Below are positions 35,601 through 42,623 of a stretch of 64,000 nucleotides of DNA, in pieces. Made by a program: the position numbers and the translations under genes. Under the pieces are notes generated by a model. That model did no database searches. It was given only the letters and a program-made list of their open reading frames with translations, and was not told where the DNA came from. Within the stretch, counting starts at the first letter, position 1. Each line of letters begins with the position of its first letter. This stretch comes from Nitratireductor alexandrii (GTDB lineage: Bacteria > Pseudomonadota > Alphaproteobacteria > Rhizobiales > Rhizobiaceae): the NCBI RefSeq assembly GCF_004000215.1, contig NZ_RBVY01000005.1, positions 310,001-374,000 of the forward strand, written 5' to 3'.

Positions 35601-36281
35601 CTTTATGCCTTCCGCGTCATGGTCGAGGATCAGATCCCGATGAATGCCGGCTGCCTGCGGCCGGTCAACATCGTCATCCCGGAGGGATGCATGCTACGGC
35701 CGGCCTATCCGGCGGCCGTCGTCGCCGGCAATGTCGAGACCTCCCAGCACGTCACCAACGCCATGTTCGGCGCCATGGGCGCGCTCGCCAACGCCCAGGG
35801 CACGATGAACAATCTCACCTTCGGCAACGCCACCTACCAATATTACGAGACCATCTGTTCGGGCTCGCCGGCCGGGCGCATGAACGACGGCCGCGGCTTT
35901 GACGGCACCTCCGGCGTGCATACCCACATGACCAATTCGCGCCTGACCGACCCCGAAGTGCTGGAATTGCGGTTTCCCGTGCTGCTGGAGGATTTCCACA
36001 TCCGCACCGGCTCCGGCGGCACCGGAAAATGGAACGCCGGCGACGGCACCCGCCGCACCATCCGCTTCCTGGAGGAGATGGAATGCGCGATCCTGTCCTC
36101 GCACCGCCAACGCCCGCCGCGCGGCGCGGCCGGCGGCGGCGACGGCCAGGTCGGCCGGACCGAGGTACGCCGCGCCGACGGCACGCTCGAGACGCTGAAG
36201 GCCTGCGACCAGACCGTCATCGAGGCGGGCGAGGCGGTGATCGTGACCACCCCGACGGCGGGCGGGTTCGGCCGCGGCTAA
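32643..36281 (+). CDS. 5-oxoprolinase/hydantoinase A-B fusion
   Basis: A 1212-residue ATP-dependent amidohydrolase of the OPLAH/HyuAB group, which opens the lactam or imide ring of 5-oxoproline, hydantoins or related compounds. The HyuA half (about 1-690) starts with the DRGGTFTDI phosphate motif and contains [25 protein letters not shown] and [10 protein letters not shown]; the HyuB half (about 700-1210) starts near [20 protein letters not shown] and includes [21 protein letters not shown] and a glycine-rich end. In many bacteria the halves are separate genes. The ATG at 32643 has GGAG seven bases upstream. Substrate is not resolved by sequence. Confidence 0.93.
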
Positions 36282-36294
36282 TTCGGCCCCATCC

Positions 36295-36684
36295 CTATTC
36301 CAGGTCGGTCTGGATCCAGCGCGGCGAAAGGTGGATGTCGAGCGTCTGCAGCCGTCCGGGCCCGCGATTGACGAAGCGGTGCGGCACGCCGGCCGGTCCG
36401 AGCACGGTTTCGCCGGCCTCGGCGTCGATCACCGCCTCGCCGACGAAAAACCGCGCCCGCCCCTGCTGGACGACGAAGACCTCGTCATAGGGATGGACGT
36501 GCAGCACCGGACCGGTGCCGGGTTCGTCATTGCCGTAGGTGAGCACGGTGACCTGCGTGGCCAGAGCCTCCCCTTCCACGGAGCCCCGATAGGGCCCTTC
36601 GCGCGTGCCGTCGAAAAGCCGGGCCTTCGCCGGCGGGCGACCGTCGGGGGCAACGGTCGCGGGGTCGAAATCATGTCGGGACAT
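36295..36684 (-). CDS. Cupin-domain protein
   Basis: A 129-residue single-cupin protein with the first metal-binding motif in VLHVHPYDEVFVVQQGRARF and the second in GVPHRFVNRG, so a metal-binding double-stranded beta-helix fold is likely. Cupins of this size act as isomerases, dioxygenases or sensors; none can be chosen here. The ATG at 36684 has GGAGG nine bases upstream, which favours it over an ATG 114 bases earlier. It converges on the oxoprolinase gene with only 13 bp between stop codons, but no terminator was seen there. Confidence 0.8.
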   Translation of the reverse strand: MSRHDFDPATVAPDGRPPAKARLFDGTREGPYRGSVEGEALATQVTVLTYGNDEPGTGPVLHVHPYDEVFVVQQGRARFFVGEAVIDAEAGETVLGPAGVPHRFVNRGPGRLQTLDIHLSPRWIQTDLE

Positions 36685-36838: not shown

Positions 36839-37642
36839 ATGATCGTCTTTACGGATCTGGACGGAACGCTTCTCGAGCCCGATACCTGCGACCATCATGC
36901 CGCCCTGCCGGCGCTCGCCGCCCTGGCCGCGCGCGCCGTTCCGGTGGTGGTGGCGACCGACAGGACGGCGGCGGAGATCGGACCGGTCCTGGTCGAGCTC
37001 AAGCTCGATACGCCGGCCATCGTCGAAAATGGCGGCGGCGTCTTCTGGCCGGCCGCCCCCGCCGGGCCTGCCGAGGCCGATGCCTGCTACGACGAGATTC
37101 GCGCCTGTCTCGACGCCCTGCCGGCAAGGCTGAAAGGCTGTTTCGCCGGGTTCGGCGACATGGATGCCCGTCGCATCGCCGCCCTGACCGGGCTGAACAG
37201 GGCACGGGCCGCCCGCGCGTCCCGGCGCGGCTTTTCCGAACCGGGCCTTTTTACCGGCAGCGAAACCCAGCTCGTTGCTTTGCGCCGGCACCTGGCCGCG
37301 CACGGCCTGTGCGCCGAACGTCATGGCCGGTTCCTGACCGTCTCGCGCGGCGGCTCCAAGGCCGGACGCATGAACGCCGTGCGCGCGCTTGTGGAAAGGC
37401 GCGACGGCCGGCGCTATTGGCCGCTGGTCGCCCTGGGCGACGCCGAGGAGGACCGGGAGATGCTGGAAGCCGCCGATTACGGCGTCGTGGTGGCCAATCC
37501 CGCCCATCCGCCGCTGGCCGAGCTCGACGGCGAGCGCGAGGGGCGTGTCATCCGCACCGAACTGCCCGGCCCGATGGGCTGGAACGCCGCGATGATCGAA
37601 ATCCTCAGGCGGCTCGCGGGCTCCGCCGAATTCGACGCCTGA
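36839..37642 (+). CDS. HAD-IIB phosphatase, mannosyl-3-phosphoglycerate phosphatase-like
   Basis: A 267-residue HAD-superfamily hydrolase. Motif I is DLDGTLL with the nucleophile Asp near residue 6, motif II is the Thr in VVVATDRTAAE, motif III the Lys in GGSKAGRM, and motif IV the LGDAEEDREML acidic pair; the C2B-type cap lies between. This fits the YedP/MpgP group that dephosphorylates mannosyl-3-phosphoglycerate, but no mannosyl-phosphoglycerate synthase is visible here, so the substrate is uncertain. It is upstream of btaA on the same strand, with a PHO box in the 111-bp gap, so btaAB probably has its own promoter. Confidence 0.8.
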   Translation: MIVFTDLDGTLLEPDTCDHHAALPALAALAARAVPVVVATDRTAAEIGPVLVELKLDTPAIVENGGGVFWPAAPAGPAEADACYDEIRACLDALPARLKGCFAGFGDMDARRIAALTGLNRARAARASRRGFSEPGLFTGSETQLVALRRHLAAHGLCAERHGRFLTVSRGGSKAGRMNAVRALVERRDGRRYWPLVALGDAEEDREMLEAADYGVVVANPAHPPLAELDGEREGRVIRTELPGPMGWNAAMIEILRRLAGSAEFDA

Positions 37643-37685: not shown

Positions 37686-37703
37686 CTGTCACGCCGCTGT
37701 CAT
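37686..37703 (+). promoter_or_regulatory. PHO box (PhoB operator) upstream of btaA
   Basis: CTGTCACGCCGCTGTCAT contains two 7-mers separated by four bases; 13 of 14 positions match the direct repeat CTGTCAT-N4-CTGTCAT bound by PhoB. It ends 50 bp before the btaA start, at an appropriate distance to replace a -35 region. Confidence 0.8.
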
Positions 37704-37753
37704 CGCGCTCGACTACCCGCATGTCGATGCCCTTGCAAAGCGGGAGCCGCGCC

Positions 37754-39001
37754 ATGACAGACCTTTCGGCCGAAATCGGCCTTTCCGCCTCGCGCCCGAT
37801 CGGCAACGCCGTCTACCAGCATCGCGCGCTCAGCCGGGCCGGCATATCGGAGCGGCTGTTCGCGCTGTTGTTTTCCGGCCTGGTCTATCCGCAGATCTGG
37901 GAAGACCCCGAAATCGACATGGATGCGATGGAATTGTGCGAACGCCACCGGGTGGTGACGATCGCGTCGGGCGGCTGCAACGTGCTCGCCTATCTGACGC
38001 GCCGGCCCGCCCGTATCGACGCCGTCGACCTCAACCGCGCCCATGTCGCGCTCAACCGTCTCAAGCTCGCGGCCGCCGCCCACCTGCCCTCGCACGGCGA
38101 TTTCCATCGTTTCTTCGGCGCCGCCGGCAACCGCCACAACGCGATCGCCTATGACCGGTTCATCGCCCCGCATCTCGACCCCGCCAGCCGCCGCTACTGG
38201 GAAGGGCGCGACTGGCGCGGCCGGCGCCGCGTCACCGTCTTTGCCCGCGACTTCTACCGCACCGGCCTGCTCGGCCTGTTCATCGCCCTCGGCCACGGCG
38301 TCGCCAGGCTGCACGGCGTCGACCCGGCCGAGATCATGGCGGCGCGCACCACGCGTCAGCAGAAAGCCTTTTTCGACGACCGGCTGCGCCCCCTGTTCGA
38401 CAAGCCGCTGATCCGCTGGGCGACCTCGAAAAAGGCGTCGCTGTTCGGCCTGGGCATTCCGCCCGCGCAATATGACAGCCTGATCGGCGCCGGCAGCGGC
38501 ACCATGGCCGAGGTGCTGGCGGCGCGGCTGGAAAAGCTCGCCTGCCACTTTCCGCTCGCCGAGAACTATTTCGCCTGGCAGGCTTTTGCCCGTCGCTACG
38601 CACGTCCGGGCGAAGCCGTGCTGCCGGCCTATCTCGACAAGGCAAATCACGACACGATCCGCGCCCATGCCGGGCGCGTCGCCGTGCACCGGGCGAATTT
38701 CACCGAATTCCTGGCCGGCAAGCCGGCCGGTTCGCTCGACCGCTACGTGCTGCTCGACGCGCAGGACTGGATGAACGACCGGCAACTGAACGCCTTGTGG
38801 GCCGAAATCACCCGCACCGCCGCCCCCGGCGCGCGCGTCATCTTCCGCACCGCCGCCGCGCCGTCGATCCTGCCCGGCCGGGTCGCGGCCGAAACGCTCG
38901 GCCATTGGCGTTACGAAAAGCAACGCTCGCTGGAACTCGGCGCGCGCGACCGCTCCGCCATCTATGGCGGTTTTCATCTCTACGTGCGCGCGGATCGATG
39001 A
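37754..39001 (+). CDS. btaA: BtaA: SAM:diacylglycerol 3-amino-3-carboxypropyltransferase
   Basis: BtaA moves the 3-amino-3-carboxypropyl group of S-adenosylmethionine onto diacylglycerol to make diacylglyceryl homoserine, the first step of the phosphorus-free betaine lipid DGTS. The 415-residue protein matches the DUF3419/BtaA group: LVYPQIWEDPEIDMDAM near the N-terminus, the SAM-site TIASGGCNVLAYL followed by VDLNRAH, and the VLLDAQDWMND acidic segment. The ATG at 37754 has GGGAG upstream. It overlaps btaB by four bases, and a PHO box at 37686-37703 indicates induction by phosphate limitation, as reported for Sinorhizobium. Confidence 0.93.
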   Translation: MTDLSAEIGLSASRPIGNAVYQHRALSRAGISERLFALLFSGLVYPQIWEDPEIDMDAMELCERHRVVTIASGGCNVLAYLTRRPARIDAVDLNRAHVALNRLKLAAAAHLPSHGDFHRFFGAAGNRHNAIAYDRFIAPHLDPASRRYWEGRDWRGRRRVTVFARDFYRTGLLGLFIALGHGVARLHGVDPAEIMAARTTRQQKAFFDDRLRPLFDKPLIRWATSKKASLFGLGIPPAQYDSLIGAGSGTMAEVLAARLEKLACHFPLAENYFAWQAFARRYARPGEAVLPAYLDKANHDTIRAHAGRVAVHRANFTEFLAGKPAGSLDRYVLLDAQDWMNDRQLNALWAEITRTAAPGARVIFRTAAAPSILPGRVAAETLGHWRYEKQRSLELGARDRSAIYGGFHLYVRADR

Positions 39002-40669: not shown

Positions 40670-40683
40670 ATTTGGAGACTTGG

Positions 40684-41706
40684 ATGCTGTCACGCAGCCA
40701 GATCGACCTCAACCTGCTGGTAGATAGCTTGAAGGCGGCGGCCGAATCCAGCCGCATGCGGATTCTGTTTTTGCTGTCGCGCGGCGATCTGACCGTCTCG
40801 GACGTCACCGAGGTGCTCGGCCAGTCGCAGCCGCGCGTGTCGCGCCATCTCAAGCTGTTGCTCGATGAAGGGCTGATCGAGCGCTATCAGGAGGGATCCT
40901 GGGCCTATTTCCGCCTCGCCGACAGCGGTTTCGAGCGCGAACTGGTCGCCAGCCTGATCGCGCGCATCGATGCCACCCAGTCTCCGGTCGACCGCGATCT
41001 GGAACGGCTGACCGACGTCAAACGCAAGCGCGAGGAGAAGGCGGCCGCCTATTTCAGCGAAAACGCCGATGCCTGGGACCGTATCCGCTCGCTGCATGTG
41101 CCCGAAAAGGCGGTGGAAGACGCGATCCTGACGCTGATGGCCGAGCGGCCGTTCCGCACCATGCTCGATCTCGGCACCGGCACGGGGCGCATGCTGGAAA
41201 TCCTGTCGCCGCTCTATCAGCGCGGCGTCGGGGTGGACATGTCGCGCGAGATGCTGACCGTGGCACGCTCCAATCTCGACAAGGCGGCGGTGGAAAACGC
41301 CCAGGTCCGGCAGGGCGACATTTTCGCGCCCCCGGTCGAGCGCGACGCCTTCGATCTGGTCACCATCCATCAGGTGCTGCATTATCTCGACGATCCCCAG
41401 GCGGCGATCCGCGAGGCGGCGCGCCTGTTGCGTCCGTCCGGACGCATGCTGATCGTGGATTTCGCGCCCCACGATCTCGAATTTTTGCGCGCCGAGCACG
41501 CCCATGCGCGGCTCGGCTTTTCCGATCGCCAGATCACGGAATGGCTCGACGAGGCCGGTCTCGACCTGGAAAGGGCGTTGGATTTCGCCCCGACCGGCGT
41601 CGCCGGCGACAAGCTTACCGTGAAACTCTGGCTCGGCCGCGACCGCAGGCTCCTCGTCGCGGCCGACAACACTGCCGAGGGGCAACCAACGGAGATGACT
41701 TCGTGA
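40684..41706 (+). CDS. ArsR-type repressor fused to a SAM-dependent methyltransferase
   Basis: The 340-residue protein joins an ArsR winged helix (residues about 10-95; recognition helix in LGQSQPRVSRHLKLL) to a class I methyltransferase domain with motif I LDLGTGTGRMLEIL at 161-174 and downstream VGVDMSREML. It has none of the cysteine metal sites of classic ArsR sensors. In alphaproteobacteria such fusions precede metF and are thought to sense SAM or S-adenosylhomocysteine with the methyltransferase domain. The ATG at 40684 has GGAGA upstream; it ends in a GTGA overlap with metF. Autoregulation through the palindrome 14 bp upstream is likely. Confidence 0.9.
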   Translation: MLSRSQIDLNLLVDSLKAAAESSRMRILFLLSRGDLTVSDVTEVLGQSQPRVSRHLKLLLDEGLIERYQEGSWAYFRLADSGFERELVASLIARIDATQSPVDRDLERLTDVKRKREEKAAAYFSENADAWDRIRSLHVPEKAVEDAILTLMAERPFRTMLDLGTGTGRMLEILSPLYQRGVGVDMSREMLTVARSNLDKAAVENAQVRQGDIFAPPVERDAFDLVTIHQVLHYLDDPQAAIREAARLLRPSGRMLIVDFAPHDLEFLRAEHAHARLGFSDRQITEWLDEAGLDLERALDFAPTGVAGDKLTVKLWLGRDRRLLVAADNTAEGQPTEMTS

Positions 41707-42623
41707 ACCAGTTCCGACTTTCGCGGCGACCCGACATAGGCGATCAGATCGACGTATCGTTCGAGTTCTTTCCGCCGAAAAACGATGCCATGGAAGCCCG
41801 TCTTTGGGAGACGACCGAGCGGCTGCAGCCGCTTTCGCCCTCATTCGTGTCGGTGACCTACGGCGCCGGCGGCTCCACGCGCGAACGCACCGCCCGCACC
41901 GTCGAGCGCATTATCCGCGAAACCGCGCTGACGCCGGCCGCGCATCTGACCTGCGTCGACGCCACCCGCGAGGAGGCCGACCAGGTGATTCGGCAGTTCC
42001 TCGACCTCGGCGTATCGCGTTTCGTCGCCCTGCGCGGCGATCCGGCCGAAGGCGTCGGCGCGCGCTACACGCCGCATCCGGGCGGCTACGCCAACGCGGC
42101 CGAACTGGTCGAGGCGCTCGCCCGGCACGGCGCCAAGGACATCTCGGTCGCCGCCTATCCGGAAAAGCACCCCGAAAGCCCGGATTTCGCAACCGATATC
42201 GACATGCTCAAGCGCAAGGTCGACAACGGCGCCAAACGCGCCATCACCCAGTTCTTTTTCGACAACGACCTCTACGAGCGTTATGTCGAGCGCGCCCGCC
42301 GGGCCGGCATCTACGTGCCGATCGTTCCGGGCATCCTGCCGGTGCACAATTTTGGCCAGGTCGCCAATTTCGCCGGCCGCTGCGGCGCGCATGTGCCCGC
42401 ATGGCTGGCCGAACGCTTCGAGGGGCTGGAAAAGGATCCGCAGACCCATGCGCTGGTTGCCGCCGCCGTCGCGGCCGAACAGGTGCTCGACCTGGTCGAG
42501 CGCGGCGTGTCGGATTTCCACTTCTACACGATGAACCGGGCCGATCTGGCCTTCGCGATCTGCCACATGATCGGCATTCGCGCCAATGGCGCCGGCGAGG
42601 ACGCAAAACCCGCGGCGGCGTGA
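41703..42623 (+). CDS. metF: 5,10-methylenetetrahydrofolate reductase
   Basis: MetF reduces methylene-THF to methyl-THF, the methyl donor for methionine synthesis, with FAD as cofactor. The 306-residue TIM-barrel protein has the SFEFFPPKN motif, SVTYGAGGSTRERT, ALRGDP, the AAYPEKHPES stretch and FDNDLYERYVERAR of the family. The start is a GTG at 41703, supported by GGAG eight bases upstream and by its overlap with the preceding stop codon. A strong terminator follows at 42705-42733. Its fusion-protein neighbour and the palindrome indicate control by methionine-cycle metabolites. Confidence 0.95.
   Translation: MNQFRLSRRPDIGDQIDVSFEFFPPKNDAMEARLWETTERLQPLSPSFVSVTYGAGGSTRERTARTVERIIRETALTPAAHLTCVDATREEADQVIRQFLDLGVSRFVALRGDPAEGVGARYTPHPGGYANAAELVEALARHGAKDISVAAYPEKHPESPDFATDIDMLKRKVDNGAKRAITQFFFDNDLYERYVERARRAGIYVPIVPGILPVHNFGQVANFAGRCGAHVPAWLAERFEGLEKDPQTHALVAAAVAAEQVLDLVERGVSDFHFYTMNRADLAFAICHMIGIRANGAGEDAKPAAA

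Follow-up and report, generated by a model that had tools for sequence, protein, structure and literature searches.

A predicted PHO box in front of the betaine-lipid genes btaA and btaB of a Nitratireductor-like bacterium

The genes btaA and btaB of a Nitratireductor-like bacterium are preceded by a predicted PHO box, which is very probably a PhoB-activated promoter element that switches on btaAB in low phosphate. The box (CTGTCACGCCGCTGTCAT) was read from the letters of the window, the whole 64,000-nt stretch of DNA analyzed here. It consists of two direct 7-mers, CTGTCAC and CTGTCAT, separated by GCCG and therefore set at an 11-nt period. The gap between the box and the btaA start codon is 50 nt. 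Thirteen of 14 positions agree with CTGTCAT-N4-CTGTCAT and all 14 with CTGTCAY-N4-CTGTCAY. Hence, the box has the repeat structure that defines a PHO box, two 7-nt CTGTCA(T/C)-type direct repeats with a 4-nt spacer. A preliminary description of this DNA had reported the same repeats, spacer, distance to btaA and 13-of-14 agreement, with which the sequence agrees. It had also proposed that a PhoB-type box controls btaAB, a view supported by the conserved place of the box, the spacing to a downstream TA, the presence of PhoB and the companion boxes elsewhere in the genome.

Table 1 Predicted features around the btaA promoter, in window coordinates
Feature	Coordinates	Strand	Basis or remark
HAD-IIB phosphatase, mannosyl-3-phosphoglycerate phosphatase group	36839..37642	+	NCBIfam (best match under cut-off); judged outside the unit
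PHO box, two direct half-sites	37686..37703	+	Unique exact match in the genome; conserved before btaA
Predicted -10 element CTACCC	37713..37718	+	9 nt 3′ of the box; TA conserved at this offset
Shine-Dalgarno-like GGGAG	37742..37746	+	7 nt 5′ of ATG 37754; putative, from the letters
btaA, predicted SAM:diacylglycerol 3-amino-3-carboxypropyl transferase, 415 aa	37754..39001	+	Pfam DUF3419 (PF11899) and context
btaB, predicted SAM-dependent methyltransferase, 242 aa	38998..39726	+	Methyltransf_25, 6.2e-17

The exact pattern CTGTCAYN4CTGTCAY occurs once in the 4,865,814 bases of the genome, both strands included, and this single match is the btaA box. A reversed control pattern has no exact match in the same bases. 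With up to three mismatches, nine places are found in the window, namely the btaA box and eight others, all of which carry three mismatches. Shuffled versions of the window contain 7.2 such places on average, so that these eight are at chance level. Similarly, up to two mismatches give 43 places genome-wide versus 25 for the reversed control, and near matches alone are therefore little proof. The case for the box rests on the exact match, its location and its conservation across relatives.

In the window, TA stands at offset 10 after the pair of half-sites, and we infer that the TA-containing CTACCC is the -10 element of btaA. Two features count against this reading of the promoter. CTACCC is a poor -10 sequence, and the spacer GCCG is G+C-rich, the spacer of the E. 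coli PHO-box consensus being A+T-rich. No sigma-70 consensus promoter was found between positions 36500 and 40800, which fits an activator-dependent promoter but falls short of proof. Finally, a search of the leader for RNA elements gave no Rfam match at the gathering threshold.

The first gene of the unit was assigned to btaA from its domain and its context. Its product matches PF11899 with an E-value of 1.6e-110 (370.4 bits for a cut-off of 28.2), DUF3419 being what we take to be the Pfam family of BtaA, and a methyltransferase gene overlaps it. No NCBIfam model matched BtaA at E 0.001. Thirty-nine further family genomes carry homologues with 49–73% identity, and the closest named btaA (among the best 80 of 386 loci) is that of Nitratireductor arenosus, 95% identical. 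Relatives’ BtaA proteins begin with MTDLS or similar, so that ATG 37754 is the best supported start; a longer mechanical ORF starting at TTG 37682 is an unlikely candidate for the gene. The ATG of the second gene overlaps the btaA stop codon (ATGA, 38998–39001). This gene is taken as btaB from its position in the operon; none of the NCBIfam matches listed for its product (best 25 of 36) is over the cut-off. A tRNA-Lys (ttt) proposed by ARAGORN on the minus strand, antisense within btaA (38879–38952), has no Rfam match at the gathering threshold and is probably false. One relative (G043, locus L088) has btaA in two pieces with an in-frame stop, possibly through a frameshift or an assembly error; this genome is 76% complete. 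A little 3′ of btaAB, the window contains a fusion of an ArsR-type HTH with a methyltransferase domain (40672–41706), just 5′ of an MTHFR (metF) gene (41541–42623); the btaAB products would consume SAM.

The conservation of the pair was measured in a set of 61 family genomes. Forty of them have a BtaA match, the window’s own included, and the DNA upstream of btaA was examined in all 40. A pair was counted when two half-sites 11 nt apart reached a score of at least 15 within the last 130 nt before btaA. Of the 40 family genera with btaA (own included), 30 have such a pair 5′ of the gene, and TA follows the pair at offset 10 in 24 of the 30. At the other offsets examined, TA occurs in 0 to 2 genera, with the exception of offset 21 (5/30), which we interpret as offset 10 plus one further 11-nt unit. 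Taken singly, ten of the 30 pairs in the family are weak (scores 15.5–17, shuffle frequencies 0.005–0.095) and rest on their shared position and on the TA. Among the named loci, for which the best 80 of 386 were taken, 76 of the 80 carry the pair; TA follows it at offset 10 in 56 of these 76 loci and at offset 11 in another 11. The four loci below the cut-off show a pair by eye, one starting just beyond 130 nt and three scoring 14.5. As a background, 88 of 1916 random 130-nt segments from the same loci reach the cut-off, and TA is at offset 10 in one of these 88. The family and named sets overlap (three promoters are identical over 100 nt) and the species are related, so the counts do not represent independent events. 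In N. arenosus, the box is identical to that of the window. Loci with TA at offset 11 (L116, L119, L122, L124, L126, L129, L130, L133, L134, L148, L158 and L160) belong mostly to the Brucella/Falsochrobactrum group.

The number of half-sites varies between lineages. Several relatives have three to five half-sites before btaA and the window has two; these counts of two to five use a lenient cut-off for the outer half-sites, and the final repeat included in the count runs into the -10 region in L037, L040 and L059. In the Rhizobium/Agrobacterium group, the second half-site before btaA is degenerate (CTGTWGC). Tentatively, and with the odds somewhat against it, the btaA promoters of the family may be viewed as a natural series, with two to five tandem half-sites, a nearly constant gap between the last half-site and the -10, CTGTWGC in Rhizobium/Agrobacterium and, in loci that join plcP to btaAB, the box before plcP. 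The number of half-sites might then tune the phosphate threshold or the promoter strength by lineage, the window carrying the minimal form.

Eight of the ten genera without a btaA pair have plcP directly 5′ of btaA. In these eight genera, a pair scoring 15.5–20 lies 55–90 nt before the extrapolated plcP start, and it is the best of the longer stretch scanned in seven of the eight, tying for second in L083. Another genus without a btaA pair (L057) has the order plcP, another gene, btaA, and the region 5′ of plcP falls outside the locus. In L080, also without a btaA pair by the cut-off, the only pair is weak (score 14.5); CTA comes after it at the usual spacing.

We also examined plcP itself, the reference for PlcP being the metallophosphoesterase SMc00171 of Sinorhizobium meliloti; genes are called plcP-like here from their domain and their likeness among relatives. 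Twenty genomes were searched, one of which had no match, giving 20 loci from 19 genomes. With the window’s genome included, 18 of the 20 plcP loci have a pair scoring at least 16.5 at -55 to -70. The two misses, L186 and L189, score under 16.5. L189 is an additional, distant PlcP-like copy in G023, with 49% identity and no pair by the scoring used. After the plcP pairs, TA is observed at offset 13 in 7 of 18 loci and at offset 11, 12 or 14 in 5 of 18. The btaA-type spacing to the -10 does not extend to plcP, since offset 10 is found in 0 of 18. Across plcP loci L170–L188, the conserved pair is mostly followed by ATGAATC or similar, and the spacing thus differs under a like box. The plcP-like gene of the window’s genome is on a different contig from btaA. 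Its product contains a Metallophos domain and shows 56–67% identity to the products of the genes directly 5′ of btaA in the eight genera, with no NCBIfam match at 1e-20. It is preceded by a weaker pair, GCGTCACATGGCTGTGAC, at -62, with three mismatches and no TA at offset 10.

Phosphate genes elsewhere in the genome provide companion sites. PhoB is encoded (334 bits for a curated cut-off of 296.2), and like sites are found at the core Pho genes pstS, phnC, phnG and ugpB and at a cpdB-like gene. The combined pattern GTCAY-N6-GTCAY-N10-TA has two exact places genome-wide, btaA and phnG. With at most one mismatch, 19 places are found versus 4 for the control; phosphate genes account for 5 of the 19 (btaA, phnG, pstS, ugpB and the cpdB-like gene). 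The remaining 14, judged by eye except for a photolyase-like gene, include sites within coding frames as well as sites preceding genes with no plain link to phosphate. The pstS site, CCGTCATCGAACTGTAAC, lies 71 nt 5′ of the start. This PstS-family gene scores 157.7 bits with TIGR02136, under the cut-off of 206.6, and heads a cluster running towards phoB, whose other members were recognized by eye. The products of phnG, phnC and ugpB are over their NCBIfam cut-offs, and that of the cpdB-like gene is over the cut-off of NF006938. The corresponding sites are CTGTCACGCGAACGTCAT for phnG, three tandem half-sites for phnC, CAGTCATGCGGCCGTCAT for the cpdB-like gene and TTCATAAAACGGTCAT for ugpB. Offset 10 thus characterizes btaA, phnG, phnC, pstS and ugpB here but not plcP, given its absence from all 18 plcP loci.

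The 43 places with up to two mismatches do not constitute a map of the regulon. Twenty-nine of them and 13 more were examined, mostly by eye, and plain phosphate genes were found only at pstS, phnC, phnG and the cpdB-like gene. Two further sites of this genome are worth recording. At positions 1501–1518 of L066 (G000:C36:19790), CTGTCATCGTGCCGACAC has TA at offset 10 and lies about 200 nt 5′ of a photolyase-like frame (Pfam DNA_photolyase); it is possibly an unrecognized Pho promoter. At positions 1501–1518 of L069 (G000:C36:204431, minus strand), CCGTCATCAAACTGTCGT closely resembles the Rhizobium btaA box and lies near the start of an opposite-strand frame for an AraC-type regulator (best NCBIfam match GbdR, under the cut-off).

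Could the two CTGTCAY words stand 11 nt apart by accident in G+C-rich intergenic DNA? The commonness of near matches (43 versus 25 for the control) speaks for it, as does the overlap of 23 of 29 examined loci with a mechanical open frame, a weak test that also flags the phnC, phnG and pstS sites. However, the exact match is unique in the genome, most relatives show the pair with TA at offset 10, and the box is unchanged in N. arenosus, which makes a chance resemblance hardly credible. It is also very unlikely that another response regulator of the OmpR/PhoB family binds the box and couples btaAB to a different signal. Related response regulators can share direct-repeat sites, and besides PhoB the genome encodes nine PhoB-like regulators of full or nearly full length. 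Yet all nine fall short of the PhoB cut-off, and like boxes precede pstS, phnC, phnG, ugpB and the cpdB-like gene. In addition, btaAB is reported as PhoB-regulated in S. meliloti (available portions of PMC3972451 and PMC3596328). Activation by PhoB is the preferred reading.

A further possibility, compatible with PhoB activation, concerns the HAD gene upstream: the box would work, and read-through from this gene would also express btaAB in high phosphate, so that DGTS would not be strictly confined to low phosphate. The HAD gene and btaA are co-directional and 111 nt apart, and a search of the plus strand between them gave no terminator-like site. On the other hand, among 120 btaA loci (own included), the HAD gene is found within the flanks only in the window and in N. 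arenosus (L090). We consider such read-through rather unlikely. The HAD-IIB product has its best NCBIfam match at 4.2e-76 (255.9 bits, under the cut-off of 353). The gene occurs in 10 of the 61 family genomes and, in the other nine, does not adjoin btaA (G048 has no BtaA match). No box lies near it, the nearest upstream site with at most three mismatches being at 36203, more than 600 nt before its start. The lack of a nearby box and of linkage to btaA in the relatives examined speaks against the HAD phosphatase as a member of the btaAB unit. The gene thus appears to be a local neighbor outside the unit, and the view of the preliminary description, that it is probably outside the regulon, stands.

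These observations suggest the following mechanism for the PhoB-activated promoter. The box would act as a minimal PHO box of two half-sites, taking the place of the -35 element in the btaAB promoter. When phosphate is scarce, PhoB in its phosphorylated form would occupy both CTGTCAY repeats in head-to-tail arrangement and bring RNA polymerase to CTACCC, the weak -10. Expression of btaA and btaB would in turn lead to DGTS, a betaine lipid without phosphorus, made from diacylglycerol that the PlcP-like phospholipase, encoded elsewhere with its own weaker box, may supply. The box, its conservation, its spacing to the TA, the presence of PhoB and the boxes at other phosphate genes are read from the sequence; for this bacterium, we infer PhoB binding, low-phosphate induction, the enzyme activities and DGTS production. 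According to the available portions of the sources, btaA and btaB of S. meliloti are PhoB-regulated and induced by phosphate stress, and its PlcP supplies diacylglycerol (PMC3972451, PMC3596328, PMC8829014). As far as the accessible text of PMC4415409 goes, PHO boxes are head-to-tail PhoB sites with 11-nt units. For marine bacteria, the part of PMC4796936 at hand describes plcP-btaAB clusters, DGTS that depends on plcP, and plcP clusters with Pho boxes.

Overall, a Nitratireductor-like bacterium joins the Alphaproteobacteria predicted to replace phospholipids with a betaine lipid at low phosphate. The geometry of the btaA promoter can be read from dozens of relatives, which makes the PhoB-btaA-PlcP prediction directly testable. 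Among the matches listed in a search of open-licence PMC articles, no title contained Nitratireductor, and one paper, on a seaweed, named the genus. The kind of switch proposed is already known for btaAB, and it adds little to what has been published for Sinorhizobium and marine bacteria. The comparative point, two to five half-sites at a nearly fixed distance from the -10 together with the CTGTWGC variant, appears mildly new.

Like the PHO boxes known from E. coli and rhizobia, as presented in the available part of PMC4415409, the window box has two 7-nt direct repeats with 4-nt spacing, forming 11-nt units. It likewise belongs to boxes that precede phosphate genes, 5′ of a -10-like TA. It differs in its G+C-rich spacer and in having only two half-sites, against three to five in several relatives. 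The gene pair is the same as btaA-btaB of S. meliloti and Rhodobacter sphaeroides; the S. meliloti genes are PhoB-regulated according to the portions available of PMC3972451 and PMC8829014, and the window BtaA was assigned from Pfam DUF3419 and context. Compared with the Type 1 plcP-btaAB clusters of marine bacteria, in which plcP and btaAB are linked to Pho boxes (PMC4796936, in the part at hand), the window’s genome differs in having its plcP-like gene on another contig with a weaker box of its own. Eight of the 40 family genera resemble the Type 1 clusters, with plcP directly 5′ of btaA and the pair before plcP.
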